A DNA stretch of 57,371 bases from Planctomycetota bacterium. GTDB lineage: Bacteria; Planctomycetota; Phycisphaerae; UBA1845; UTPLA1. Shown here one piece after another: positions 7,057-49,053 of the stretch. Within the stretch, counting starts at the first letter, position 1. Each line of letters begins with the position of its first letter. The DNA lies in assembly GCA_003576905.1 (NCBI GenBank), contig QEVG01000034.1:1-57371 (forward strand). The letters are read 5' to 3'. Under the pieces are notes generated by a model. It was not told where the DNA came from, searched no databases, and was given only the letters and a program-made list of their open reading frames with translations. The translations under genes and the position numbers were made by a program.

Positions 7057-8679
7057 CTACTTCGGATCATTCGCGAGCCGCCCCAGGGCTTTCAGCCGCC
7101 AGACGTGTTCGGTGTTCGGAAGTGTCCCCCATGCCGTGCCGATGCGATCAAGCGCTTCGGGCGTCAGCAGTCCCAGGGCCTGCGCCTCGACCGGGTCGAA
7201 AGGCGTGTGTCCGACGGCGCGCTGCGCGGCGGATTTGTTGAGCCACGCCGAAAGCGCCCGGCGGGTTTCGGCATGGTCCGGGTCCGGCCCGAGGCTGGTG
7301 AGCGTCAGCATGGGTCGGAGACTGTAAAGCGCAAGCAGCACGCTGGAGATTGCGACGTACCCCAGCACGATGTTGAGCCGCCGGCTGGAGCCGATTCCCG
7401 CCGCGCACGCAATGGCCGTCGCCACCCAGCACCACGCGAGCGGCGCGATGTAGAAGCGAACGGCCGGAAAGAAATAGAGCGAATACACGACGATATGGCC
7501 GCCGATCCAAATCGCGACGGCGAGTCCCACGGCCCCAAAGGTCGCGCGTGTCCAACCCTTGGCACGCCGGGACGCGACCAGAACCCACGCCGCACAGAGC
7601 CAGCCGGTCATCGGCCAGTACCGACCGAGACCCTGGTTGCCGTCGGGACGAAGTCCGCGCAGGCCGAGGAAGGCATTGCCCGCGACCGCAAGGTTTCCGA
7701 TTCTCTCGTCTGATTGACGCCGGCGAAGCGCGAAATCCGGGTGGCCCTCGAAGGCGTTGCGCAGGCTGAATGAATCCCCCAGTCGGTCGTAGAGTTTCGG
7801 TATCCAGAACCGATATCCGCTCCACTCCCACGCCCTGTACCCCGAGCGGTGCATGGTGAACATCGTGAGCCCCGCGACCAGGATCAGCCCGGCAAGCCCG
7901 ACGGCGAGACGGCGCGCCGCGCGTTCTGCGCCATGCCGCTTCGCGCCGCAGGCAAACAGGACCGCGATGGGAGCGACCAGCAGGCATCCGGCAATCGGAC
8001 GCGTGGCGAGTGCCATGCCGGCGGCAACCCCTGCGGCAAGCATCGCCGCGCGAGCGCGTCGGGCCGACGGCTCCCCCACGAGCGCCAGCGCGCAGGCGGC
8101 GAGGGAAAGGGTACCAAAGAACGCCGTCGGCTCATCGCTCATGAGCGTCCGGTCCCATTCGATGGACACTGGCGTGATGGCCCAGCCCCATCCCGCGCAG
8201 GCCCCCGCAAGAAACGCGCGGCGGTTTACTTTTTGCGGGGCCAGATCGGGCATCCGCGCTCTGACTAAAAGGCGCACGCCGTGAACCGTGATCACGGCGA
8301 GCACGTACGCATGGGCGGCGCCAAACAGCCCGGTCAGCCGCCACAGCGATTCCGTCTCCATCCCGCAGCGGATCGCGACCGACAGGAGCATCGGCCAGCC
8401 CGGTGCATAGCGCGGACGGACCGTTTCGGGCCCGACGTGCAGGCAGTAGCGGCCCTCGAGGGCAAGGGCCTGCGCCGCGGCGGCATACTCCAGTGCGTCC
8501 GGCCGGGGATCGAGGTGCGGGCCGGGGGTCCGTTCAACGAGGGTCCAGCGGATCAGAAGTGTCGGCGATACGACAGCAAGCGCAAGCAGGACATGGCAGA
8601 GCCGCTCGCGATTGAATATTCCCGGAGCCCGATGCGGCTGCATTCCGTTGCTCCATCGCCGCCCGGCGCGCGACGTCAT
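7057..8679 (-). CDS. Polytopic GT-C (ArnT/PMT-like) glycosyltransferase, putative
   Basis: A 540-residue membrane protein with about 11-12 hydrophobic segments. After the first segment it has an acidic loop ('HLDPRPDALEYAAAAQAL') and then 'RYAPGWPMLL', the layout of GT-C enzymes that use polyprenyl-phosphate sugars on the outer face of the membrane. Its start codon overlaps the stop of the large upstream gene in an ATGA (8676-8679), so translation is probably coupled and the product belongs to the same surface-glycan pathway. An internal Met at 8643 is possible, but the ATGA overlap favours 8679. The donor, acceptor and exact family are not readable. Confidence 0.7.
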   Translation of the reverse strand: MTSRAGRRWSNGMQPHRAPGIFNRERLCHVLLALAVVSPTLLIRWTLVERTPGPHLDPRPDALEYAAAAQALALEGRYCLHVGPETVRPRYAPGWPMLLSVAIRCGMETESLWRLTGLFGAAHAYVLAVITVHGVRLLVRARMPDLAPQKVNRRAFLAGACAGWGWAITPVSIEWDRTLMSDEPTAFFGTLSLAACALALVGEPSARRARAAMLAAGVAAGMALATRPIAGCLLVAPIAVLFACGAKRHGAERAARRLAVGLAGLILVAGLTMFTMHRSGYRAWEWSGYRFWIPKLYDRLGDSFSLRNAFEGHPDFALRRRQSDERIGNLAVAGNAFLGLRGLRPDGNQGLGRYWPMTGWLCAAWVLVASRRAKGWTRATFGAVGLAVAIWIGGHIVVYSLYFFPAVRFYIAPLAWCWVATAIACAAGIGSSRRLNIVLGYVAISSVLLALYSLRPMLTLTSLGPDPDHAETRRALSAWLNKSAAQRAVGHTPFDPVEAQALGLLTPEALDRIGTAWGTLPNTEHVWRLKALGRLANDPK

Positions 8680-11600
8680 TCGACCGGCCTGCCCGATCGG
8701 AACCGCAGGAGCCCATCATACATGGTGAGGCGAAGATCGATGTAGAGCCAGCGATAGAGCCACTTGCCCAACGGCCGCGGGGCATAGCGGATGCTCTCGA
8801 TGCCGTAGAGCAGCCTGGCAACAGGCAGCCCGATCCAGCGCAGCAGGCTCAGCGCCCGGCGGTACTTGACCAGTTTCCGCTCGAAGACGAACCGATGGGC
8901 GTGCTCCGGGTGCTGCTGGAGAAAGTAGCCGAGGGAATAGCCCGCCCGGCGCTTCTTGCGCCGGTACGCGTCGTACTTGGGGTAATAATCGTGCAGTACT
9001 TTGAGGTCTGGCAGATAAACCATGCGGCGATCTTCGCCAAGCAGGCGGAAGCCGAACTCGATGTCCTCGACGCCATAGACGGAAAAGCCCTCGTCGAAGC
9101 GCGTCGATCCGAGCACCTCGCGCGGAATCGCCACGCAGGCCGTGTAGAAGTAGTTGGCCGGGACATCGTCGTTGTCGGGGAAGTTGTAGATGTTGACGTC
9201 CTGCGCCTGGAGCAGATAGCGCTCGAACGGGTCCACCGAATCGGTCCACGGCGCTTCGATGTGTCCCAGCAGGACACGGCCCGGGCGACGCTTTGCAGCC
9301 GACAGAGTGCGGCGCAGGAAGTCCCGGCCCACGAGGATGTCATCGTCGATCAGGAAGACGAGCGGGGCGCCGGCCTTATCGAGGCCCATGTTCCGCGCCG
9401 CGGCGGCGCCGGGCTTCTCGCAGCGCAGCGTGGTGAGGTTTTCATACCGGCGCGCCAGATCAGCCAGAAGCTGTGGCGTGTGGTCGGAGGAACGGCTGTC
9501 CACCACGATGACTTCATAGCAGTCGGTGGGAATGTCCTGCGCCATGATCCTCTGGATAACCCGTTCGAAGCGGTCGGCGCGATTGTGCGTGGGAATCACG
9601 ATCGAAACCGCGGGGCGCGGAAGCCGGTCCATGTCCAACGCGTCTGCGTCCGCGTTCTCCTCCGCGGGAGTGCCCAGATGCAGGCCGCCCCACAATCCCC
9701 ATGCCAGATCGGTCTCGCCCACGAAGCGCAGCGTGATCGTTGAACGTCGGTCGCCGGGAGGCGCTTCCAGCGGCGCTTCAAATGGAATCCAGCGCCGATG
9801 CTCGCGCCGGGCCAGCTCGACGCGCTGCTGCCAGACCGTGCGACCGTTCTGATCCACGCTGAACAGGCCGACGGCCTTGTCATTCCACGCTTCCTCCGGC
9901 GCCGCGACCGCGCCGGACAGTCGGGCGTCGGCGGGCACGGGCAGGTCAAAACTGATCTCAGCCGTATTGAACGCCAGGATCGCCGGGCGCACCGCGCCGG
10001 CGACGCTCGCACCGGCGTGTGCGACGATGTGCGAATCGACCGGGAGATGCACCTTCAGCCGCTTGCGCGCGCGCGGGAATTCGGCGTGCAGATCGGCCGC
10101 GGGCTTCAGTGGGGACATCTCTTTCAGGCTCAGGTCCTGTCCGTGGTGCCCGTAAGTCCAGCCGTTGAAATAGACCCACCGGTGCGTGCCGAGCCGGGCC
10201 CGGTCGTCGCGCCCGCGGATTGCGGCAGGCAGGTGTCGCATCGACGCCAGCGCGGCCTTCAGCGTGCCCCATTTATGCCAGAGGGGATTGCGTGAGATAG
10301 TTCCGACGCGCAGCATGGCGAGGTAATGCAGGGCCAAGTCTTTTTGGGAGCCGTACATCGCGCGCATCAGCGCGCCGTTGCGCATTGAGTAGTAATGCTG
10401 GAGCTTCGGCGTCTTTTTCGGGTCGAGGTCTTCGGTAAAGTGCTGCACGACGGCCTCGGGCACATAGATGCACTTCCAGCCGCGAAGCCACATTCGCCAC
10501 GAGAGGTCCACGTCCTCGGCATACATGAAGAAGGACGGCATGAATCCGCCGCCGATCTGCCGCAGGGCCGTCGGACGCACCATCATGCACGCCCCGCTGC
10601 ACCAGCTTGTTTCGCCTGTGATCGGGTCGTAGTACTTGGGGTGCTCGCGCGGGGCCTGGCGGGCCTCGGCGATGCCGATCGTCGCGTCGGCTTCCATGCG
10701 ATCGACCAGCAGGCGGATCGCGTCAGGCTCGATGACCGTGTCGAGGTTCACGACGAAATAGTAGTCCGCCTCTCCGTGGCGGAAGGCTTGTTCGTATCCG
10801 CCGGTGAAGCCGAGATTCCTGCCGGTCGTGACGACCTCGACGCGCATCGGCAATTCGGACGCGGCGGCGACCATGCGCGCCACCGAGTCGTCGCGCGAGC
10901 CGTTGTCGACGAAGACTACCCGCAGGCACTCCGGCGGATAATCGAGCTTCCTGAGGCCGCCGACAAACCCGTCGAGCCACCGCGCCGAGTTGTACGACAC
11001 GACCATGATGTCGACGGTCGCGACCGTACGCTTGCGGATCACCGCTTCCAGCGTGCGGATGTTGTCTTCGAGGCCCTTCTGATACGATCGGGCACGATCG
11101 ATCTCCCGTTCAAGCGATCCCTGGTACTCGCGGGCCGCGGCGAGGTCGTGCTCCAGTTGTACCTGGTGCGCCCGAACGTCCTCCATCGCGTCCGGCGCCA
11201 GCGCGGCGAGCACGTGCTCGCGATACTGGCGAAGGACGTCGCGCCGGTCGGTCGGCGGTGCAAACTCCTTCTGCAGGACGTATTCGACGGCGACGGCGGC
11301 GACGTTGGTGAGGGCCGGATCGAGGCCGCGAAACGGTTCGGCGCGGAAAATCCGCTGCGTGCAGTGCGGTGAATGTATGAAGTTTCGCGCGAGCGTCAGG
11401 GCGAACAGCGAGGTCCGCCGGGCAAGGTCATAGTCAAAGAGGAGCCAGTGCCCGTCCTCCGTCCGCGCGATGTTTCGCCCGATGTAATCGCGCGTGGAAA
11501 TCACGGTTCTCAACGCGTCGGCGCGCGAACGCACCATCTCGCAGAAAGCTTTGCACACGATCTCGCCGATGTGGTTTTCGCCGAAGAGCGCCCGAAATGC

Positions 11601-13115
11601 CTCTTCGACAAGGCGCAGATCGGCGCGGATCTCGTCGTCGCCGGACGGCGCGCCGAGATCGTAGACATCGTTTGCAATCGTGACGAGCCGGTCCGTCGCC
11701 TCGTCGGCCGTCAGTATCCCTTCGGCCACGAGTTCATCCAGCGAGCGCGTGCCCTCGACGTGTTCCTCGAGAAGGTAAAGGTGGCGGGCGTGCCGGCGCG
11801 ACGCCAGTAGTCGCACGGGCCGAAAGGTTGATGCCCGCTGGTAGCATTCGTAGGCGGAAACGATAGCGTCGGGGTCGAACGCACTGGACAGCGGCACGCG
11901 CTTCATCGATGCGACGGCCCGATCGTCCAGGATTACGGAAAACCGGGCCGTACTCGTTTCGGCCTGCCGCGCGAATGCACCGCCGACGCTCCGCAGGCGG
12001 ATGTCCGAGACCGAGTGTTCGCCGAGAAGCCCCGCTTCCATGAGCAACTCCGCGGCTACTTCGCTCAGGCTTTCCGAGCGGACACCACGCCCGCCGACCA
12101 CCCGGCCGGCCCGCTTCAGCACGAAGCCGAACGAAGGCACGAAGTACCTGGCGATTCCCATACGGGCGAAATTCTGATAGAGGCTGCGGAGCTCGGCATA
12201 AAGGTCCAGCGGCGCGCCGTCCGCCCCGCTGTGTTCCGGGGCAGGCAGTCCGTGCCGAAGGAGGAAGGCGTCCACCTGTTCGAGCGGCACAATGTGGCGA
12301 ATAAGCTTGTAATCCGGGAAGCAGCCAAAGGCTCCCTCTGTCTCGAGTCCGGCGTCGGCGAAGAGCTTCAGATACTGATCGAGGGCCCAGGTTCGCGCCG
12401 CCGCTCCGTCGTCGCGGTCGGTGCGATAGGTAAACGCGCGCTTGCCGGTGTGGTCGTCGGGCGCTCCGAGGATGTATTTCAGCCCCGTGGCGTTCTCGAT
12501 TCCGATGTAAAGAGAGCCGTCGTCGGCGAGGGCGTCCCCGAGCTTTCGCAGCACGGAAAGGTGCGCGGCGCGGTCGCCCTCCTCGCGGCCGAGATTGGTG
12601 TACTCCAGCATGCCGTTGACGATGATTACATCGAAGAAGTGATTCCGCAGCGGGAGCGTGTGAATGTTGCCGCAGATCATCCGCGGCTGCACCTGCTCCT
12701 GCCGCGCGATCTCGCGCAGGATGCGCAGGCGGTTGACCGTCTGATCGATCGCAAACGTCTCGCCGATGCGCGCCAGCGGAATGGTCACCTGCCCCCAGCC
12801 GCTGCCCACGTCGAGAAACCGCCCGCCCGGGGGCACGGTCATTACGTCCAGCATCTTCGAACGCGACGGATCAGTGATAATGTTGTACAGCCAGGGCAGC
12901 TTCCGGGCGTATCGACGCGCAACCACGTCGCGCCAGGATCCGCGCCGCAGTTCGTCGATCAGGCTTTTCTCTTCGGGCGAGCCGAGATCGGTGTACGCCC
13001 CCTGGTGATCCACGTGACAGAGGATGTCCCGGTCGACGATTTCGAATCCATCGGCGTCGGCCAGTGCGGCCGCGCCGGGATGCTTCAACTCTGCTGCGGC
13101 CTGGTCCAAACCCAT
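8676..13115 (-). CDS. Multidomain methyltransferase-kinase-coiled coil-GT2-GT2 glycan enzyme
   Basis: A 1479-residue soluble protein. Residues about 60-290 are a class I SAM methyltransferase (motif I 'FLDVGSGWGQ' at 100-109). Residues about 370-600 look like a kinase/aminoglycoside-phosphotransferase fold: Lys405 in 'VASMKRV', catalytic-loop 'RDYIGRNI' (Asp543, Asn548), metal-binding 'LFDYDLA' (560-565). Residues about 645-695 are a charged heptad-like helix. Residues 700-960 are a GT2 ('DIMVVSYNS', 'NLDT' at 790-793, 'EDVDLSWR'). Residues about 1020-1150 are beta-rich and may bind carbohydrate. Residues 1168-1440 are a second GT2 ('IVIPTHNRAD', 'LIDDDI'). Methyltransferase, kinase and coiled coil in this order resemble WbdD, which caps and measures O-polysaccharide; that comparison is inference from motif order. 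Neighbours are a flippase and a GT-C enzyme. Confidence 0.8.
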   Translation of the reverse strand: MGLDQAAAELKHPGAAALADADGFEIVDRDILCHVDHQGAYTDLGSPEEKSLIDELRRGSWRDVVARRYARKLPWLYNIITDPSRSKMLDVMTVPPGGRFLDVGSGWGQVTIPLARIGETFAIDQTVNRLRILREIARQEQVQPRMICGNIHTLPLRNHFFDVIIVNGMLEYTNLGREEGDRAAHLSVLRKLGDALADDGSLYIGIENATGLKYILGAPDDHTGKRAFTYRTDRDDGAAARTWALDQYLKLFADAGLETEGAFGCFPDYKLIRHIVPLEQVDAFLLRHGLPAPEHSGADGAPLDLYAELRSLYQNFARMGIARYFVPSFGFVLKRAGRVVGGRGVRSESLSEVAAELLMEAGLLGEHSVSDIRLRSVGGAFARQAETSTARFSVILDDRAVASMKRVPLSSAFDPDAIVSAYECYQRASTFRPVRLLASRRHARHLYLLEEHVEGTRSLDELVAEGILTADEATDRLVTIANDVYDLGAPSGDDEIRADLRLVEEAFRALFGENHIGEIVCKAFCEMVRSRADALRTVISTRDYIGRNIARTEDGHWLLFDYDLARRTSLFALTLARNFIHSPHCTQRIFRAEPFRGLDPALTNVAAVAVEYVLQKEFAPPTDRRDVLRQYREHVLAALAPDAMEDVRAHQVQLEHDLAAAREYQGSLEREIDRARSYQKGLEDNIRTLEAVIRKRTVATVDIMVVSYNSARWLDGFVGGLRKLDYPPECLRVVFVDNGSRDDSVARMVAAASELPMRVEVVTTGRNLGFTGGYEQAFRHGEADYYFVVNLDTVIEPDAIRLLVDRMEADATIGIAEARQAPREHPKYYDPITGETSWCSGACMMVRPTALRQIGGGFMPSFFMYAEDVDLSWRMWLRGWKCIYVPEAVVQHFTEDLDPKKTPKLQHYYSMRNGALMRAMYGSQKDLALHYLAMLRVGTISRNPLWHKWGTLKAALASMRHLPAAIRGRDDRARLGTHRWVYFNGWTYGHHGQDLSLKEMSPLKPAADLHAEFPRARKRLKVHLPVDSHIVAHAGASVAGAVRPAILAFNTAEISFDLPVPADARLSGAVAAPEEAWNDKAVGLFSVDQNGRTVWQQRVELARREHRRWIPFEAPLEAPPGDRRSTITLRFVGETDLAWGLWGGLHLGTPAEENADADALDMDRLPRPAVSIVIPTHNRADRFERVIQRIMAQDIPTDCYEVIVVDSRSSDHTPQLLADLARRYENLTTLRCEKPGAAAARNMGLDKAGAPLVFLIDDDILVGRDFLRRTLSAAKRRPGRVLLGHIEAPWTDSVDPFERYLLQAQDVNIYNFPDNDDVPANYFYTACVAIPREVLGSTRFDEGFSVYGVEDIEFGFRLLGEDRRMVYLPDLKVLHDYYPKYDAYRRKKRRAGYSLGYFLQQHPEHAHRFVFERKLVKYRRALSLLRWIGLPVARLLYGIESIRYAPRPLGKWLYRWLYIDLRLTMYDGLLRFRSGRPVE

Positions 13116-13231: not shown

Positions 13232-14611
13232 CTAGAGCGCCACAGCGAACAGCCTCCGCGCGAACAGGACGATGAGCACGGCCTCGCCGACGAACATTAT
13301 CGAAGTAGCCGCCGCCGCGCCGTAGATTCCCAGGGGCGGAATGAGCAGCAGGTTCAGAAGAACGTTTCCGGCGACGGCCGTGAAAATGATCAGCGTGTAG
13401 GCTCCCGGCCTGCCGCCCTGGAGGAAGATGCCCAGGAACGGGCGATAGCCGGAATTGATCCAGATACCCGCCATGAGAATCACAAACACCGCCCAGCTCG
13501 GGCCGAGTCCCGCCTCTGCGCCGAGAAGCCAGAGCAGGATTGGAAATCCGCCGACCGCGGCGAGCGCGATCGCCGCCATGAGGACGTACATGATCTTCTT
13601 TACTCTTCGCGCGGCCTCGCGAATGCGTTCGCGGTTGTTCTCCGAAAAGGCCCGGCCGATGATCGGATCGAGGTTTCGGCGCACGACCAGCGGTATCTGG
13701 CAGAAGCCCTCGGCGAGGATGGCGGCGAAGCTGTACACGCCGACCGCGGCATCGCTGGTGAAATAACCCAGCATCAGCACGTCGACGCGCGTATTCATCT
13801 CGCTGAGCAGCCCGGCGAAGAATCCGCGCATGCCGAAGGAGAGATGCTCCGCGATCCAGGGCGACGCGGGCGACGCGATGAACAGGTGCACCGCCCGGAC
13901 CCGTACGTAGGTCGCCGTGATGACAAAGAGCGCCAGCTCGGAGGTCGTCAGCGCGAGCGCGATATCATGTGACGGCCGGCCGCTCGCCAGGATCGCCACG
14001 ACGGAGATCAGGAGAAAGATAAACCGCAGCGCCTGGAGCACGGCGAAGGCCCGCATGCAGCGCAGGCCGTTGAGCGCGTTGAGCAGAATCTTGTTGAGCG
14101 AAAAGAAGACCAGTCCCGGCGCGGCGAGCACGACGCCCGTCGCGACCGCGGGACTGCCGAGGACCGCGCCGAACGATCCGCTGAGAAGATACGCACAGGC
14201 GGAGACGACCGTCGAAAGCCCGAAGCCCAGGAGCAGTCCCGCCGAGGCAATCTCGCCGCACTTCGCGCGGTCGTCCTGATGATAAGAAAGGCACCTGAGC
14301 ACCGACAGGTGCACACCGCCCACCGCGATCTGCGAGAGCATGATATAGATCGCGAACACCTGGTTGAAGATGCCCAGCGCCTCGGCGCCGCGCCAGCGGG
14401 CGATCACGCCGTTCATCAGGATTCCGGACACGCCGAGAATCCCGACGCTCGCCAGGTTCCACACCACCTCGGCGTTGAAACGCCGCTTGAGCGACAGGCT
14501 CTCCCGCAGGCCGCCCAGCCCCGTCGCCGCCGGCGGCGAAGGCTCATCCGCCGCGTCGATCGCGGAAGGTACGGCGGTCTCGTTTTGCGGCGCGACCGGG
14601 TCAGGCGTCAT
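13232..14611 (-). CDS. Wzx-like polysaccharide flippase (MOP superfamily)
   Basis: A 459-residue inner-membrane protein with about 12-14 hydrophobic segments and typical MOP/Wzx features: an N-terminal 'FNAEVVWNLASVGILGVSGI', a first helix pair ending 'ARWRGAEALGIFNQVF', and 'MNTRVDVLMLGYF' in the middle of the protein. Flippases of this group move undecaprenyl-linked oligosaccharide across the membrane. The ATG at 14611 overlaps the stop of the amidotransferase gene by 11 bases, which fixes the start better than the upstream 14731. Residues 1-30 are a Pro/Ala/Glu-rich cytoplasmic tail that Wzx proteins usually lack. The next gene begins 116 bases downstream. Confidence 0.85.
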   Translation of the reverse strand: MTPDPVAPQNETAVPSAIDAADEPSPPAATGLGGLRESLSLKRRFNAEVVWNLASVGILGVSGILMNGVIARWRGAEALGIFNQVFAIYIMLSQIAVGGVHLSVLRCLSYHQDDRAKCGEIASAGLLLGFGLSTVVSACAYLLSGSFGAVLGSPAVATGVVLAAPGLVFFSLNKILLNALNGLRCMRAFAVLQALRFIFLLISVVAILASGRPSHDIALALTTSELALFVITATYVRVRAVHLFIASPASPWIAEHLSFGMRGFFAGLLSEMNTRVDVLMLGYFTSDAAVGVYSFAAILAEGFCQIPLVVRRNLDPIIGRAFSENNRERIREAARRVKKIMYVLMAAIALAAVGGFPILLWLLGAEAGLGPSWAVFVILMAGIWINSGYRPFLGIFLQGGRPGAYTLIIFTAVAGNVLLNLLLIPPLGIYGAAAATSIMFVGEAVLIVLFARRLFAVAL

Positions 14612-16661
14612 GGTAGAGCTTGGGGATCCGGGCGATGCGATGCACGATGGCGTCGAACTGGTCTCCGATGCCGATGGTGTCGAGGTACCAATGGATCGAC
14701 TCCCACCGCGGCTCGTTTTCCTTCCGGGCAAGCTCGACGGCCTGCTCGCGGGTGAGGATGCCCTCGCGAATCTGGTTGCTTCGAAATGTCTCGTTCTCGG
14801 AGAATCCGGCGACGGTGTAGTAGATGTAGTTATAGAACGAGGCGGTGCCGTCGCCGATGCGCCAGGTGGAATCTGTGTCGGTCGCGGTCTCCCAGTCGTA
14901 GGCGTCGATGATCGTGCGCGTAATGGTGTGCTCGTCCCAGCGGACGAAGCGATAGATGTTCAGATAGTCTCGCCGGATGACGTAAAAACAGGCGTAAGCC
15001 CACGCGGTGTCCAGCAGCGAGGCGTTGATGTAGCCCGGATTCTTCAGGTACGCGCCGGCGTAATACCCGGCGAGCTTGATCTTGTCGCCCATCGTCAGCG
15101 TGTAGACGTGGTCCGGATCGTCCGGCCGGCCGCTCCGCACGCCGCAGAAGCCGGTCTTGAAGTCCGTTTTCTCCAGCATGTTCTCGCCGAGAATGATGAC
15201 CGGCAGGTTCATCTGTTTTTTCAGCTTGTTCGCGTGGTGGAAATACTGCTTGTCGCCCGCCATGAAGAGCGGAATGATGCCGAGGTCCGGCTTGCGGAGC
15301 CATGCCAGGACGTTGGCACGGATAAACGACCGCTTCCGCTCGATGTCCGCCGATACGAGAATGTGCTCGATTCCCAGCGCGCCGCAGATGCGCGAGATGT
15401 TCCGCCGAGCCAGGTCGGTCACCATACCCCAGTCGTAGGTGAAGGCCACCGGGTTCATTCCCAGTTCAACCTTTGCAAAGTGCAGCGCGTAGGTGCTGTC
15501 GCGTCCGCCGGAAAGGCCCACGAGGCAGTCGGGACGCCCGGTCGCGCTGCGGTGTGGCTCGAGGATGCGGCGCAGCGCGTCGGCCCCGCGCACGTCGTTC
15601 CGCCGATAGGTGCGGCAGTAATTGCAGACGCCGTCCGCCCCAAAGGCGATCATTGGCATCGTTTCGGGAAGGATGCACCTGGTACACCGCCGCAGCCGCC
15701 CGATCGCGGCATGGTTCATCTCCGGCAGGTTGCTGAATCGCGGCGCCACGACGCGGGGGGGTGCAACCGCTGTGGCATATCCGTTGCCCTCCCCGAGCAT
15801 CGAGGTCGGCAGGATGTCCACGACGCGGCGGGCCTTGTCGCGCCGCGGAAACGCCGCGGCCGCATCGGCGGCGCGATCAAGTTCGAAGGGCGTGCGCGAC
15901 AGATCCGAAAGATGAATGACGCAACCCTGACCGGGCCGGACCTGGCTGACTTCGAATCCGCGCGTATCCCTGCCGAGTCGGCGGCGCGACAGGAGCGTGC
16001 GAAGGATGTACTCCTCCGATGCAAACACGATCGCGTCCTGTCGAGGCCGTGTCGCGATGTAGAGGGAGCCGGTGTTGGTCGCCAGAAGCAGCGCGTCGAG
16101 ATCCTCAAACAGGACCGCGATCGAGGCCGCGCCGCGGATTTCTCGAAAGGTGGCCTGCGCCGCGGCCACAAGGTCGCCCGCCTCCTTGAGGTGCTTTCGT
16201 ATCAGTCCGGCGATGACTTCCGAGTCCACCCGTCCGTGGCGCGGCAGGTCGGGATGCGCGCGCCACAAATCCTCGTCGTTGACGACGATGCCGTTGTGAA
16301 TGCCCACGACACCGCTGTTGATGACCGGCTGGTTGTTGAGGCGATTGTCCTGAAGACCGGTGGTCACCAGCCGCGAATGACCGATGATGGCCAGTGGACG
16401 TCCAGCGGCGTGCCCGTTGCCCGACGCCGCGCCGCGCTCCAGCTCGGAAAAAAGCCCTCGGTACTCGGGGCGTCGCACCAGCGTCCGCGCTCGTACCGCC
16501 TCCTTGTAAATGCGGATTTCATCGCCCGCCAGCATCGCCACGCCGGCGGCCTCCTTGCCGCGCGATTCCGATAGGCGAAACAGATCATTGACGGTCGCTC
16601 TCAATTCGCTGAGCGAGAACGGCGCGTCTTCCCGAACTGTAATGCCGAAGATACCGCACAT
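14601..16661 (-). CDS. Class II glutaminase fused to N-acetyl sugar amidotransferase (WbpG/PseA-like)
   Basis: A 686-residue fusion. Residues 1-290 are an Ntn-type glutamine amidotransferase: catalytic Cys2 ('MCGIFGI'), 'GHSRLVTTG' at 94-102, 'HNGIV' at 122-126, 'RVDSEVI' at 144-150. Residues about 320-686 match sugar amidotransferases of LPS biosynthesis: zinc-type 'CTRCILPETMP' (326-336) and 'CNYC' (346-349), then the PP-loop 'LSGGRDST' (383-390) that binds ATP. Such enzymes turn an acetamido group of a nucleotide sugar into an acetamidino group. In Pseudomonas the ammonia comes from a separate HisH-type class I glutaminase; here a class II domain is built in. The product suggests an amidino or amide sugar in the surface glycan. 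Confidence 0.85.
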   Translation of the reverse strand: MCGIFGITVREDAPFSLSELRATVNDLFRLSESRGKEAAGVAMLAGDEIRIYKEAVRARTLVRRPEYRGLFSELERGAASGNGHAAGRPLAIIGHSRLVTTGLQDNRLNNQPVINSGVVGIHNGIVVNDEDLWRAHPDLPRHGRVDSEVIAGLIRKHLKEAGDLVAAAQATFREIRGAASIAVLFEDLDALLLATNTGSLYIATRPRQDAIVFASEEYILRTLLSRRRLGRDTRGFEVSQVRPGQGCVIHLSDLSRTPFELDRAADAAAAFPRRDKARRVVDILPTSMLGEGNGYATAVAPPRVVAPRFSNLPEMNHAAIGRLRRCTRCILPETMPMIAFGADGVCNYCRTYRRNDVRGADALRRILEPHRSATGRPDCLVGLSGGRDSTYALHFAKVELGMNPVAFTYDWGMVTDLARRNISRICGALGIEHILVSADIERKRSFIRANVLAWLRKPDLGIIPLFMAGDKQYFHHANKLKKQMNLPVIILGENMLEKTDFKTGFCGVRSGRPDDPDHVYTLTMGDKIKLAGYYAGAYLKNPGYINASLLDTAWAYACFYVIRRDYLNIYRFVRWDEHTITRTIIDAYDWETATDTDSTWRIGDGTASFYNYIYYTVAGFSENETFRSNQIREGILTREQAVELARKENEPRWESIHWYLDTIGIGDQFDAIVHRIARIPKLYHDA

Positions 16662-16757: not shown

Positions 16758-19700
16758 CTATTGCGCGGCGGCTTTTTCGGAAAGTGGCCGGGCCTTGCGC
16801 CGCATTCGCCGGATAAGGTAAAGATGTCCCGCCATGGTGAAGAGCGCCAGCGCCGTCGCCGGCACGAGCCACGGCGGTCGATAGACGAACTCGACTTTGT
16901 GCGACCCCTTGGGTAGGCATATGGCCCGGAGGTTGTAGTCCGCCCGGAAGACGCCCGTCTCCGAGCCGTCGATGAAAGCCCGCCAGCCGTGGTCATAGTT
17001 ATCGCCGACGACGAGGTAGCAGTCTCGATCCGCCTCCGCCGAGAAAACCTGTTTCGAGCTTCTTAGCTCCACGGGGACGACGCGGCCCGTAACCCGCGCC
17101 GCGGGGCGCGGCGCGCCGGCGATCGCGCGCATGTCCTCCTCCGCCCAGATCAACTCTCGAAGATCGCCCGTCGCCTCGGAAAGCGCCGACAGGACCTGCT
17201 CCGGCGAACCGTAGCTCAGCCCTCCCGCAAGCCACGCGCGCCCGTACACCTGCGTGTTCTCCAGCACGACGATCTCTCGTTCGAACACAAGCTTGTACTT
17301 GGACAGGTCGTGCCGCCCGACGGCATACAGGGAGGCCGTCAGGTCGCCGCCTCGCGGCCGGCCGCCGATGCTCAGAGTCCCTTCCGGCAGGACGTCCACT
17401 TCCTTCGTACAATAGACGGCGAGGTGCCCGGCATTGGCGCCGTCGATATCCAGCCGCAGCTCGACCTCGCGCCCGGGCGGCAGCGCGTGCCGATCCAGCC
17501 CGAATGCGAGCACGCCCCGCTCGGAGTCCCACTCGGCGTCGGTCCATTCGCGCTTCTCGCCGCTTTCAACGTCGGTGATGGTAAGCCGGCATCCCGCCGG
17601 ATCGGAAAGAGCGTTCTCCTGCACGCGGACGTCGAAGCGATCGACCGTAAGCTCCCTCGCAGCGCGATACGTCTGCGTCAGGCTCTCGCCGGCGAGCAGC
17701 TGCGCGGAGTCGTTCCACTCCTTCTGGTCGAAAGCGTAGGTGTTGCCGTGGTCGGCAAACAGCGAAAAGGTGAGGTCTCCCTTCCACGGCCCGCCGTCCC
17801 AGTCGATACTGCCGCTACGGATGATGTCCACGTCTTTCGTGCAGAGAACGTCGACGGGCCCCCCGGCGTCCGGCTTTGTCGTCAGAGTGACCACATATTC
17901 GTGTCCAGGGATCGTCTCGAAGCCGTCGAGGTCAAACTCCAGCCGGCGCATCGCCGGAATCCACCGCGCGTGAGCACACGCAGCCTCCCGGCCGTCGGTC
18001 GCATCCCTCAACCGCAGTTCCGCCGGAGATGCGCTTTTCCACAGGCCCTGGGCGATCTGGATCATGCAGCGATCCAGCTTGATGGACCGCGAGGGCGTGA
18101 AGGACTGTCGAAGCGACTGGCCCGGCGCAATCGCAATCTGCGCGTTCCAGTCGGTCTGCTTCACGGCGTAGTCGCGCTGGAGGTCTTCGATCTGCATCCG
18201 ATGGTCGAGCGCAACGTACTTGATGCCAAGCGCATCGACGATCGGGCTTGCCAGCCGGGTGCGCAGACTGCTTTCGAAGAAGAATGCCGTGTTCTGGCCG
18301 CCGGTAAATGCGTCTTCGTTGACCAGGCGATAGAGGCCCTTCTGCCGCGCGTCGAAGAAGCCGCGCCCGCTGAAGTTGTTGACGCCGTAAAAGAGCGGCA
18401 CGTTGGCGAGGCACGTAGTGTTCAGGCCGAGCAACTTGTGCGGGCCGATGTTCTCGATAAGAAAGTCCATCGCCGGAATCTTCGGAAAAAAAGTCTCGCG
18501 GCGGATCGTGGGGTTCCAGCCCACCGCGATGCGCCGCTCCGCGATGGCCTCGCCGGTTCCCCGTGTGAGATTTCGGTCTCCGAACGACAGCGGGTACCAG
18601 CTCTTGTCCCACAACTGGAGATCGACGAAGAGCACGAGCACGGCGAGCGCCTTGACCCAGACGCCCGCCCTGACCCCCAGCCCCAGCACGATAAAAACAC
18701 CCAGCGACGCCAGCACCGCCGCCGCCTGAAGCCAGAACGCTGAACGAACAAATGCGGTCGCCTCGGCGGAAAGCGCGTACCGGGCGGCGAATGCGGCCGC
18801 CACGACGCCAATCGGCGCAGCCAGGATCGCGGCGAGCTTGCGCAGCCGGGCCGTGACGCGCGGCAGGTCGTTCAGCGCGTACGCGAAGAGGATGGCGAGT
18901 GTGAACACCAGCAGTAGCTTCTGGCGCGTGTTGGGATTGCTGTTGAACACTGGCAGGTGCCGCACGACGTGTTCGAGAATGTTCCCCACGTTGTAGAGAA
19001 TGGCGATGAGCCACGCGGTAAACAGCAGGAAAAAGACGCGGACATTGTCATACCGCCGAAACAGCAGGCTCTGAATTACGAGCAGCACGGGCAGCGTCCC
19101 GATGTGAAACGCATACTCGTACCACCACCCAATCGGCGTCCCGCGGGCATACGGCGGCCCATAGATGATCGGGAAGAACCATGTCAGGAGACTTGTCATC
19201 GGAAGCCGCCAGCTCCAGTAACTCTCGCGATAGGACCAGTCGAATCCGGAGAAGAAGTCGGCCGTCGCGACCAGCGCCGGCGCGGCGGCGAGAAACGGAA
19301 TGACATTCAGAAGCGCAAAGAGCCCCAGCAGGCGCAGCCGCCGACCCGGTTGGAACGTCGCCCGCCACGCCGCGTACAGCGCGAGGAAATAGAGGCAGTA
19401 CGCCGTGCCGGCCGGAAACCCGGAGAGGATATTCATCCAGTGCAGAACCGGAATGAGCCACACCCAGAGCAGGCTTCGGTCGCGGATTATCCGCTCCGTC
19501 CCGTAGGCGACCATTGGAATCAGGAAGAGTTGAAAGTCCATCGGCAGGATGAAATCCTGAATGGTGTACTTGCAGTACGAGAAGGCGATTGCGCCGCAGA
19601 GGCCCGCCCAGCGGTCCATCCCGATGATCCGCGCGTACTTGTAGAGAAAAAGCCCGCCGATCAGGTGCCGGAAGATGAAGAACACAGTCAGACCGACCGG

Positions 19701-20171
19701 CACCTTGAGCAACATGATGAGCGCAAGCAGCGGCAGCGTCATAAGCTCGTGCTTGATAACCAGCAGAAACGGCGTTCCGTTCTGTATCTTGTCGCACCAG
19801 AAGGGAATGTCCCCTTCCTTGAGGCACTTCCGCATGTACTCCATCTGCGGATAAAACATGTCCACCAGGTCCGAGAGGACCGGGTTCGTGCCCGGCACCG
19901 TGTCCTCGGTCGCATGAACGGCCCATGGGGTGTAGAAGTAAATCAGGTCCGTCGGCGACAGCGCGTCGTGCCGGAGCCAGACATCCGGCCAGGCGACGAC
20001 ACTCAGCAGGACGAGCACGGCGCAAACCGCCAGTTCATCATGTCGGTGGAGAAACGACGCGCGCTGCGTCGCGCCGTGTGCCGGCGAAGGCGAAGCGGGA
20101 TCGCCCGGGGCCGCGGCGATTGGCTCGGCGGTCGTGGGTGCGGGCGTCGTGTGGGTATCCTGTTCTGCCAC
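16758..20171 (-). CDS. YfhO-family membrane protein
   Basis: An 1137-residue protein. Residues about 45-550 hold about 12 membrane segments with an acidic first outer loop ('LSPTDLIYFYTPW', then 'DLVDMFYPQMEYM') as in GT-C glycosyltransferases. Residues about 560-1090 are extracytoplasmic and beta-rich, ending with 'VVGDNYDHGWRAFIDG', the C-terminal signature of YfhO. A final membrane helix follows at about 1100-1120. Bacillus YfhO adds sugars to lipoteichoic acid; most other members are unassigned. The outer part contains two similar segments of about 110 residues ('LTQTYRAARELTVDRFDVRV' is the second, matched by 'LRQSFTPSRSIKLDRCMIQI'), so an internal duplication. The start is a GTG, with a GGAG about 15 bases upstream. 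It is the first gene of the minus-strand glycan run. Confidence 0.75.
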   Translation of the reverse strand: MAEQDTHTTPAPTTAEPIAAAPGDPASPSPAHGATQRASFLHRHDELAVCAVLVLLSVVAWPDVWLRHDALSPTDLIYFYTPWAVHATEDTVPGTNPVLSDLVDMFYPQMEYMRKCLKEGDIPFWCDKIQNGTPFLLVIKHELMTLPLLALIMLLKVPVGLTVFFIFRHLIGGLFLYKYARIIGMDRWAGLCGAIAFSYCKYTIQDFILPMDFQLFLIPMVAYGTERIIRDRSLLWVWLIPVLHWMNILSGFPAGTAYCLYFLALYAAWRATFQPGRRLRLLGLFALLNVIPFLAAAPALVATADFFSGFDWSYRESYWSWRLPMTSLLTWFFPIIYGPPYARGTPIGWWYEYAFHIGTLPVLLVIQSLLFRRYDNVRVFFLLFTAWLIAILYNVGNILEHVVRHLPVFNSNPNTRQKLLLVFTLAILFAYALNDLPRVTARLRKLAAILAAPIGVVAAAFAARYALSAEATAFVRSAFWLQAAAVLASLGVFIVLGLGVRAGVWVKALAVLVLFVDLQLWDKSWYPLSFGDRNLTRGTGEAIAERRIAVGWNPTIRRETFFPKIPAMDFLIENIGPHKLLGLNTTCLANVPLFYGVNNFSGRGFFDARQKGLYRLVNEDAFTGGQNTAFFFESSLRTRLASPIVDALGIKYVALDHRMQIEDLQRDYAVKQTDWNAQIAIAPGQSLRQSFTPSRSIKLDRCMIQIAQGLWKSASPAELRLRDATDGREAACAHARWIPAMRRLEFDLDGFETIPGHEYVVTLTTKPDAGGPVDVLCTKDVDIIRSGSIDWDGGPWKGDLTFSLFADHGNTYAFDQKEWNDSAQLLAGESLTQTYRAARELTVDRFDVRVQENALSDPAGCRLTITDVESGEKREWTDAEWDSERGVLAFGLDRHALPPGREVELRLDIDGANAGHLAVYCTKEVDVLPEGTLSIGGRPRGGDLTASLYAVGRHDLSKYKLVFEREIVVLENTQVYGRAWLAGGLSYGSPEQVLSALSEATGDLRELIWAEEDMRAIAGAPRPAARVTGRVVPVELRSSKQVFSAEADRDCYLVVGDNYDHGWRAFIDGSETGVFRADYNLRAICLPKGSHKVEFVYRPPWLVPATALALFTMAGHLYLIRRMRRKARPLSEKAAAQ

Positions 20172-20329: not shown

Positions 20330-20857
20330 ATGAACGATCCCCTCGGCAAAATGCTGGCCAACTGGCGCATCCGAATGGTGCTGCCGCATATCCGCGGCCG
20401 GCTCCTGGACATCGGTTGCGGCGCGAACCGACTGGTGCGGCGGTACGGCAACGGCGTGGGCGTCGACGTCCACGACTGGGGCGATGTCGATCACGTTGTC
20501 GAGGATACCGCGAAACTTCCCTTTGAAGACGCGTCCTTCGATACGGTCACCATCATCGCCGCGCTCAATCACATCCCCAACCGCCTCGACGTGCTCCGCG
20601 AGGCGCGGCGCGTGCTCCGCCCCGGCGGACGGATCATCCTTACCATGATTCCGCCGACGATCTCAACCGTGTGGCACACCCTGCGCCGCCCGTGGGACGA
20701 TGACCAGACCGAGCGCGGCATGAAAGAGGGCGAGGTCTACGGCCTGACCCGGCAGCAGGTCGAGGACCTTCTGCGCGAGGCGGGCCTCGCCGTGCGTGTG
20801 TCGCGCGCATTCATGTTCGGGGTTAATCGCCTCACGGTCGCCGAAAAGGCGGCCTGA
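20330..20857 (+). CDS. Class I SAM-dependent methyltransferase
   Basis: A 175-residue cytoplasmic methyltransferase of the Methyltransf_11 type. Motif I is 'LLDIGCGANRLVRRYG', the acidic end of strand 2 is 'GVGVDVHDW', motif post-I is 'DTAKLPFEDASFDTVTII', and 'EARRVLRPGGRIILTMIP' is motif III. The short C-terminus ('QVEDLLREAGLAVRVSR') is usual. The target cannot be read; its place between glycan genes suggests a sugar or lipid carrier. It is transcribed on its own strand, divergent from the YfhO-like gene and convergent with the GT2 gene. Confidence 0.85.
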   Translation: MNDPLGKMLANWRIRMVLPHIRGRLLDIGCGANRLVRRYGNGVGVDVHDWGDVDHVVEDTAKLPFEDASFDTVTIIAALNHIPNRLDVLREARRVLRPGGRIILTMIPPTISTVWHTLRRPWDDDQTERGMKEGEVYGLTRQQVEDLLREAGLAVRVSRAFMFGVNRLTVAEKAA

Positions 20858-48212: not shown

Positions 48213-49001
48213 TCACGATACATTCGCCGGGCGCGCCATCGGCGGCCGCGCCCGGGGCGCTGCTTCTTCAACCGGCGGCGCCGCGCCGCCTTCGGTCAGC
48301 AGCTCCTCGCGAAGCGACTGATCCACCGTGCGATCTTCGTACATCAGCCCGTCCCGCATCCGGATCACGCGGCGCGCCTGCAATGCAACCGACATTTCGT
48401 GGGTTACCAGGATCACCGTCACGCCGGCATGATTCAGATCGTGAAAGATCTGCATGATCTGCTTGCCGGTACGGCTGTCGAGATTGCCGGTCGGCTCGTC
48501 GGCGAGAATGATTTTCGGTTCATTGACGATTGCCCGGGCGATCGCCACGCGCTGCCGCTCGCCGCCGGACAGTTCGCTGGGCTTGTGCGTGGCCCGGTGG
48601 GCCAGTCCGACGCGCTCCAGCGCCTTGAGCGCCGGCCCGCCCGTCCAGTTCTTGCGCGCGTAAAACAGCGGCACGGCGACGTTGTCCGCCGCGCTGGTTC
48701 GCTGGATCAGATTGAACGTCTGGAATACGAACCCGATCTTCTGGTTGCGGATCACCGCCAGCTGGCGATCGGTCATCGCGCTGACCAGTTGCCCGTCGAG
48801 CCAGTACTCGCCGCTGGTCGGCCGGTCGAGGCACCCGAGCAGGTGCATCAGCGTGCTCTTGCCGCTGCCCGACGCGCCGGTAATCGAAAGAAACTCGCCT
48901 TCCATCACGGTCAGGTCGACCCCGTCGAGCGCGCGCACGGTCGTGTCGCCCATCACGTAGTGCTTCGTGAGCTTCTTGATCTGAATCAGCGGTCGCTTCA
49001 A
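48213..49001 (-). CDS. MacB/LolD-type ABC transporter ATPase
   Basis: A 262-residue ATPase. Walker A is 'GASGSGKST' (42-50), the Q-loop region is 'FVFQTFNLI', the ABC signature is 'LSGGERQ' (144-150), and Walker B is 'IILADEP' (164-170) followed by 'TGNLD'. '[20 protein letters not shown]' at the start is typical of the MacB/LolD branch. The C-terminal about 35 residues are Ala/Pro-rich and outside the fold. The only start in frame is a TTG at 49001, with AAGGCGA upstream. It sits between the MacA and MacB genes with short gaps, in the same operon. Confidence 0.9.
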
Positions 49002-49053
49002 CGGATCGTCGCCTTTCGCGCGGCGGTGGCGCGGTGTTCCGGGTTTTGCCGGC

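Follow-up and report, generated by a model that had tools for sequence, protein, structure and literature searches.

A methyltransferase, kinase-like and glycosyltransferase fusion protein beside a Wzx-type flippase in Planctomycetota: a candidate polymerase and terminator of a lipid-linked glycan

Termination of glycan chains in the cytoplasm with a coiled coil as ruler has been described for glycans exported by ATP-binding cassette (ABC) transporters (PMC11231755; the published systems are described here from excerpts of the papers cited). ORF6 of Klebsiella pneumoniae O7 consists of a methyltransferase, an unannotated domain of 223 residues that resembles the amicoumacin kinase AmiN, a carbohydrate-binding module (CBM), a coiled coil and two glycosyltransferase family 2 (GT2) modules. 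The full-length protein phosphorylates and methylates a repeat-unit mimic, which the D441A substitution abolishes, and its C-terminal half polymerises glycan with a separate ribofuranosyltransferase (PMC11231755). In WbdD of Escherichia coli O9a, insertions into the coiled coil lengthen the glycan and truncations shorten it (PMC5082667). Here we describe a fusion protein of 1479 amino acids encoded on a planctomycete contig of 57,371 nucleotides (QEVG01000034.1; hereafter the window, which is one entire contig of a 65-contig, 4.7-Mb genome). Its open reading frame (8676 to 13115, minus strand) begins with ATG and encodes, in order, a methyltransferase, a kinase-like domain, a coiled coil, a first GT2 module (GT2-A), a beta-rich insert and a second GT2 module (GT2-B). 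On balance we favour, by analogy, the view that this protein is both the polymerase and the methyl-phosphate terminator of a lipid-linked glycan, because catalytic-type residues are present in the kinase, the methyltransferase and both GT2 modules, and because phosphorylation, methylation and polymerisation are proven for O7 ORF6, which has the same layout. The parts of the protein are ordinary and the overall plan has been on record since 2024; what sets it apart is a separate lineage, an uncommon type of exporter gene next to it and a clean natural variation in the length of the possible ruler.

In layout, O7 ORF6 comes nearest among known proteins: it too is a single polypeptide (approximately 1414 residues), in which methyltransferase, kinase and coiled coil are followed by two GT2 modules. 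It differs in that its CBM lies between the kinase and the coiled coil, whereas the window protein has a beta-rich insert between its GT2 modules (in a low-confidence model), and in that O7 uses wzm/wzt, whereas the window locus has a Wzx-type flippase gene; moreover, the methyltransferases, kinase motif and GT2 modules of O7-type relatives represent another lineage. WbdD shares the methyltransferase-kinase-coiled coil order and a spacing of 13 from the Asn to the metal-binding Asp (N356 and D369; N548 and D561 in the window protein), and differs, as far as its excerpted description goes, in having no glycosyltransferase (GT) modules, a longer coiled coil and ABC export (PMC3482155). WbbB of K. 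pneumoniae O12 unites termination, a coiled coil and polymerising GTs in a single protein, its cap being 3-deoxy-D-manno-oct-2-ulosonic acid (Kdo) added via a GT; the excerpted account mentions neither a methyltransferase nor a kinase (PMC11231755). WsaE of Geobacillus stearothermophilus is a fusion of a methyltransferase and two GT domains that caps a glycan, with a 2-O-methyl cap, wzm/wzt export and no kinase named in the excerpts (PMC2943079).

An initial annotation of the window had likened the protein to WbdD and suggested that one polypeptide could both extend and cap a glycan. The second idea finds support in O7 ORF6, for which it has been demonstrated (PMC11231755). The likeness to WbdD holds for domain order and for the top fold match, and does not extend to sequence: phmmer with residues 1-690 against PDB chains gave 19 matches at E<=10, and a full-length search against PDB chains gave 36 matches at E<=1, none of them WbdD. 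A literature search that left most subscription journals and all preprints outside gave, among its best-ranked titles, no terminator from planctomycetes or from a locus with Wzx.

Domains and conservation of the fusion protein

A sister species of the same genus (G002) encodes a full-length orthologue with 58% identity overall. A search with the N-terminal half matched 40 of 297 genomes, and residues 12-672 were covered only in the genome of the window and in G002; matches in other relatives, in which the methyltransferase part alone aligned, were set aside. A scan of viral contigs for the fusion protein gave zero matches, and none of the 281 plasmid records found by tblastn spanned 80% of it (of the best 30 rows, the GT half accounts for 29 and the methyltransferase for one, from Citrobacter, H10). 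In a Firmicutes relative (L048), the methyltransferase (345 amino acids) and the kinase (546 amino acids) are encoded by two adjacent genes downstream of wzm and wzt, and the kinase gene product has, judged by eye, an extra domain and a C-terminal helix. In the window, the claimed order of methyltransferase, kinase, coiled coil, GT2, insert and GT2 within one reading frame is borne out by Pfam, motifs and structure models.

The kinase-like domain spans approximately residues 345-620 (11256 to 12083; this and all other features within the fusion gene are on the minus strand). It is delimited by profile and fold matches, and the segment has no significant match among Pfam models. The residues proposed from the initial annotation are all in place: Lys405, the predicted ATP-binding lysine (11901 to 11903), lies in ASMKRV on a modelled strand (399-408); the predicted catalytic loop Asp543-x4-Asn548 (11472 to 11489) lies in STRDYIGRN and is invariant; and the predicted metal-binding Asp561-Tyr-Asp563 (11427 to 11435) falls within FDYD at 560-563. 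In an alignment of the window, sister and L048 kinases, whose identities to the first sequence are 42% and 24%, invariant residues occupy 47 of 385 columns, K405, D543, N548, D561 and D563 among them. We looked for loss of Asp543, Asn548 or Asp561 in close homologues and found none in the two relatives available.

A profile built from these three kinases gave 141 matches among PDB sequences at E<=10 (best E 5.8e-4). Among the best 60 of the 141, 58 are protein kinases (a few kinases account for many of these entries), and the two top alignments span the hinge region without the catalytic loop. Among 392 planctomycete genomes, nine, including that of the window, contain matches to this profile; 10 of the 11 other planctomycete matches inspected are Ser/Thr kinases, the remaining one being L073. 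For the L048 kinase, a sub-threshold Pfam APH match extends across the catalytic loop (E 0.0049, 17.1 bits against a cut-off of 23.2). We also built an N-terminal AlphaFold model of 700 residues from a four-row alignment. Of the kinase fold expected at 370-600, the N-lobe is modelled: residues 372-451 form five strands, K405 lying on strand three, and a helix that separates strands three and four. The catalytic loop is of low confidence. A Foldseek search of this model against the PDB placed WbdD first, as well as at ranks 2, 6 and 11 (best E 1.5e-9). The model has an overall predicted local distance difference test (pLDDT) score of 61. Since the WbdD alignments cover 626-687 columns on its 700 residues, both the methyltransferase and the kinase domain probably contribute to the match. 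Taken together, conserved residues, profile matches and fold matches indicate that the kinase domain is most likely real.

The S-adenosylmethionine (SAM)-dependent methyltransferase covers approximately residues 40-338 (12102 to 12998), with a Pfam Methyltransf_11 match at residues 101-178 (E 1e-9). Its SAM-binding motif FLDVGSGWGQ (12789 to 12818) is found exactly at residues 100-109, as annotated, and is nearly the same in the sister and in Firmicutes relatives. VIA-align of the N-terminal model against methyltransferases gave Z scores of up to 17.7 over residues 38-338; WbdD is absent from the best 50 rows, which span approximately residues 38-338, and we do not count this as a negative. 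Two matches from a scan of genome contigs, L049 and L050, which we take to be cyclopropane-fatty-acid-synthase-like, were dropped from the relatives.

Pfam also confirms the two GT2 modules that had been placed at 700-960 and 1168-1440, as two stretches with an E value of 3.8e-39. GT2-A (approximately residues 700-985; 10161 to 11018; Pfam and NCBIfam) carries NLD at 790-792 and ED at 867-868 and is 76.6% identical in the sister. GT2-B (approximately residues 1168-1445; 8781 to 9614; Pfam PF00535 at 1171-1287) carries DDD at 1257-1259 and ED at 1350-1351 and is 64.4% identical. The beta-rich insert between them (approximately residues 1047-1150; 9666 to 9977) is defined by strands in a low-confidence model and has no significant Pfam match. 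The GT half is poorly modelled (pLDDT 46), and the best PDB match of its model is GlfT2, which we did not use as evidence; the insert directly precedes GT2-B, and GlfT2 likewise combines a beta domain with a GT2 module.

Between the kinase region and GT2-A, a heptad helix is supported by the model and by a heptad test at residues 643-697 (11025 to 11189), close to the helix of about 50 residues annotated at 645-695. It comprises 55 residues and would measure approximately 82 Angstrom if straight (1.5 Angstrom per residue), and its heptad hydrophobicity was matched by 17 of 10000 shuffles. Within it lies a tandem 14-residue (two-heptad) repeat at residues 661-688 (11052 to 11135; borders by eye), with 11 of 40 identities at lag 14, equalled in 0 of 20000 shuffles. 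From D642 to the residue before V701, the linker of the window protein counts 59 residues and that of the sister 45; the tandem duplication accounts for the 14 extra residues, exactly two heptads. A whole-heptad length change leaves a coiled coil in register. The difference between the sisters is what a ruler model would predict; as a sign of a ruler role, we regard it as suggestive only. Control of glycan length by helix length is, by analogy with WbdD, a prediction for the fusion protein.

Relationship to O7-type proteins

To place the fusion protein we compared it with a set of nine relatives of O7 type, the O7 ORF6 and WbdD sequences themselves being outside the tree. The set comprises a 1457-amino-acid protein from a Pseudomonas asturiensis plasmid, a 649-amino-acid protein from a Citrobacter braakii plasmid, four proteins from relatives of the Firmicutes genome and three planctomycete proteins, one of them a fragment; L046 was left out of the methyltransferase tree. 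The methyltransferases of the window-type and O7-type sets match each other with an hhalign probability of 99.8% (E 1.6e-30, 279 columns) and, by sequence, form one superfamily. In the 18-row methyltransferase tree, all nine O7-type rows fall in one clade (100/100), and the window, the sister and L048 form a separate clade (99/98) that joins standalone or APH-paired methyltransferases (100/100, midpoint root).

The kinases and GT2 modules differ as well. After the D-x4-N of the catalytic loop, all three window-type kinases read D-x-D-L (D-Y/F-D-L), whereas seven of the eight O7-type proteins scanned have D-x-E(-W) and L051 reads E-R-E-W. The catalytic loops of the two types align in register with a score of 30.2 (eight sequences); 100 column shuffles did not exceed 19.2, and two reversed controls gave approximately 10. 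Between two O7-type proteins the GT2 halves share 55% and 46% identity, whereas the window GT2 modules show 15-31% identity to O7-type GT2 modules in alignments of at least 60 residues, and the two GT2 pairs are, on sequence comparison, not orthologous. There is no room for a CBM-like domain before the coiled coil, between the kinase region and helix 643-697. One O7-type fusion of 1555 amino acids (L098, 2609-7276) has three GT2-like stretches after its coiled coil by BLAST, one more than O7 ORF6.

Because the clades are separate, the kinase motif differs, the GT2 modules are not orthologous and the beta domain is located elsewhere, the same module order was probably reached independently of the O7-type proteins, and the fusion protein looks like a lineage apart from WbdD and the O7-type proteins. 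As the branches are long and the tree lacks the actual O7 and WbdD sequences, independent assembly is probable rather than certain.

Other pairings of methyltransferase and kinase occur among planctomycetes. Two proteins from one genus combine a related methyltransferase with an APH domain (Pfam 42.6 and 59.4 bits against a cut-off of 23.2). These two fusions, at L124 (8728-10644) and L125 (8213-11893), in which an HGDLHAGN motif is seen by eye, are possible simpler methyl-phosphate modifying enzymes. In a third planctomycete genome, a methyltransferase gene adjoins an APH-like reading frame that has no Pfam APH match. The pairing of methyltransferase and kinase is thus recurrent.

Gene neighbourhood and exporter

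The fusion gene is flanked by a Wzx-type (MOP) flippase gene (13232 to 14731, minus strand; PF01943, E 2.1e-11, above the cut-off), as the initial annotation had it, and the arrangement recurs in the sister, whose flippase is 67% identical. Next to it lie genes for a protein that joins a glutamine amidotransferase (GATase) domain to a WbuX-type N-acetyl sugar amidotransferase (14601 to 16661, minus strand; TIGR03573, E 5.7e-40, below its cut-off; 72% identical in the sister) and for a YfhO-type membrane protein (16758 to 20171, minus strand; PF09586, E 1.1e-14; approximately 50% identical), presumably a GT-C glycosyltransferase. The order YfhO-type, GATase-WbuX, Wzx, fusion gene is kept in the sister. 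On the other side, a gene for a GT-C-like membrane protein of 540 amino acids (7057 to 8679, minus strand; weak PMT match, below the cut-off) overlaps with its start the stop of the fusion gene (ATGA). BLAST gives no alignment between this protein and the one at its place in the sister (554 amino acids). On the opposite strand just past the YfhO gene, a 175-amino-acid methyltransferase-domain protein (20330 to 20857, plus strand) is 81% identical in the sister, above the conservation of the neighbouring glycan genes.

We found no Wzm match in the window or in the sister locus, and in the window Wzt has a single match, to a distant ABC ATPase (48393-49010). Pfam detected no Wzy_C among the 25 window proteins scanned; the genome has eight Wzy_C matches, none on the contig of the window. 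Elsewhere it encodes a Wzm-Wzt pair (contig C14) and, on contig C42, a Wzt with a C-terminal Wzt_C domain (L104, 9704-10990), a Wzt-type ATPase without a Wzm match on its contig. The three genomes searched from this genus each encode Wzt_C.

Across 16 loci with methyltransferase and/or kinase genes, Wzm and Wzt accompany eight (L048, L051, L070, L097-L100 and L127), a Wzx-type flippase three (the window, the sister and L041), and neither was found in the stretch inspected for five (L045, L124, L125, L126 and L128). These counts are non-random, L097-L100 being four of 12 listed loci, picked by long frames or best score, and they leave out the further matches G298, G437 and G473. "Neither" refers to BLAST with three or four exporter queries, and flippases may be missed because the window Wzx query passed over the L041 flippase that Pfam found. 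G212, another planctomycete from this class, encodes in one stretch at L041 (7866-18164) a methyltransferase-kinase together with a MOP flippase, a WbuX amidotransferase and a protein with a sub-threshold Wzy_C match. The methyltransferase-kinase has 633 amino acids, is O7-type and lacks GT modules. This stretch adjoins an EpsI/exosortase-associated gene and is a second case of a capper-like gene near a Wzx-type flippase.

Proposed function and alternatives

We picture the fusion protein as cytoplasmic and probably membrane-associated. GT2-A and GT2-B would extend a polyprenol-linked glycan; by analogy with O7 ORF6 and WbdD, the kinase would phosphorylate the non-reducing terminal sugar and the methyltransferase would methylate that terminal phosphate, the methyl-phosphate cap ending growth. 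The helix may keep the capping end apart from the polymerising end and might, more speculatively, set a short chain length. Gene order suggests that the neighbouring Wzx-type flippase most likely exports the capped glycan. A fuller version, in which the protein represents a third independently assembled terminator-polymerase lineage whose capped, length-limited glycan leaves by Wzx and whose chain length evolves by heptad pairs, is one we put forward only tentatively and consider doubtful as a whole.

Several observations weigh against a terminator-polymerase of separate origin. Wzm, Wzt and a CBM-bearing Wzt, the partners of known terminators, are absent from the fusion locus, and a helix of approximately 82 Angstrom is under half of the approximately 200 Angstrom reported for WbdD. 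The N-terminal model, with its overall pLDDT of 61, falls below 50 at residues 530-547 and 562-598, its kinase catalytic loop is unreliable, and VIA-align of the model reaches the methyltransferase only, without the kinase. Comparison of the window-type and O7-type kinases gave an hhalign probability of just 17% with eight sequences and 0.5% in an earlier comparison with four, and the likeness is confined to the catalytic loop; against the two APH-bearing proteins the window-type kinase reached 0.3%. The long branches and midpoint root of the methyltransferase tree leave convergence unproven, and one of its O7-type rows (L127) is a contig-end fragment without the kinase part.

The GT2 pair might instead make a short repeat unit or oligosaccharide, to which methyl phosphate is added before Wzx flipping. 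In a Wzy pathway, blocking of the non-reducing end would restrict such a unit to the first position of the chain; in other variants the oligosaccharide goes onto protein or is extended outside by GT-C proteins. Such a decorating role is the leading alternative; we consider it possible but unlikely. It would suit the neighbourhood, where the flippase and GT-C-like genes adjoin the fusion gene with the WbuX and YfhO-type genes beyond (Wzx, WbuX and YfhO being conserved in the sister and the GT-C-like protein not), as well as the short helix, the eight Wzy_C domains in the genome and the L041 locus, in which a methyltransferase-kinase devoid of GT modules is encoded alongside a flippase, WbuX and a protein with a sub-threshold Wzy_C match. 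However, Pfam found no Wzy_C among the window proteins scanned, a GT2 pair fused past the helix is the polymerase layout of known terminators, and spacing seems to matter, given the change in helix length by two heptads. The genome also encodes the Wzm-Wzt pair and the Wzt with Wzt_C, so a standard terminator could be served by an ABC transporter encoded elsewhere while Wzx handles another glycan. We judge this quite improbable, since the Wzt_C gene on C42 lacks a Wzm match on its contig and has a neighbour that we read as aspS, since a Wzt_C gene is also found in G001, where the N-terminal half of the fusion is unmatched, and since both species with the fusion gene have Wzx next to it.

Two further alternatives concern the origin and activity of the domains. 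The shared methyltransferase superfamily and the identical order of methyltransferase, kinase, coiled coil and two GT2 modules would also be expected of a fast-evolving O7-type family member with rearranged domains. The strongly supported separate clades, the differing kinase motif, the non-orthologous GT2 modules and the different placement of the beta domain (in a low-confidence model) make this origin rather unlikely in our view. The kinase-like domain could also be inactive or directed at protein, with methylation alone providing the cap as in WsaE or O5-type WbdD; no known sugar kinase matches it significantly, and its profile matches are protein kinases. The retention of catalytic-type residues down to 24% identity is unlikely for a dead domain, and we give this last proposal very little credence.

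If the fusion protein is indeed a polymerase and terminator, its position beside a flippase gene would either break the pairing of such enzymes with ABC export or show that methyl phosphate tags Wzx substrates. The locus would extend methyltransferase-kinase cappers to Planctomycetota, and points to several forms in which kinases became joined to methyltransferases of this superfamily. The two sister species would then offer a natural two-heptad variation of the ruler.

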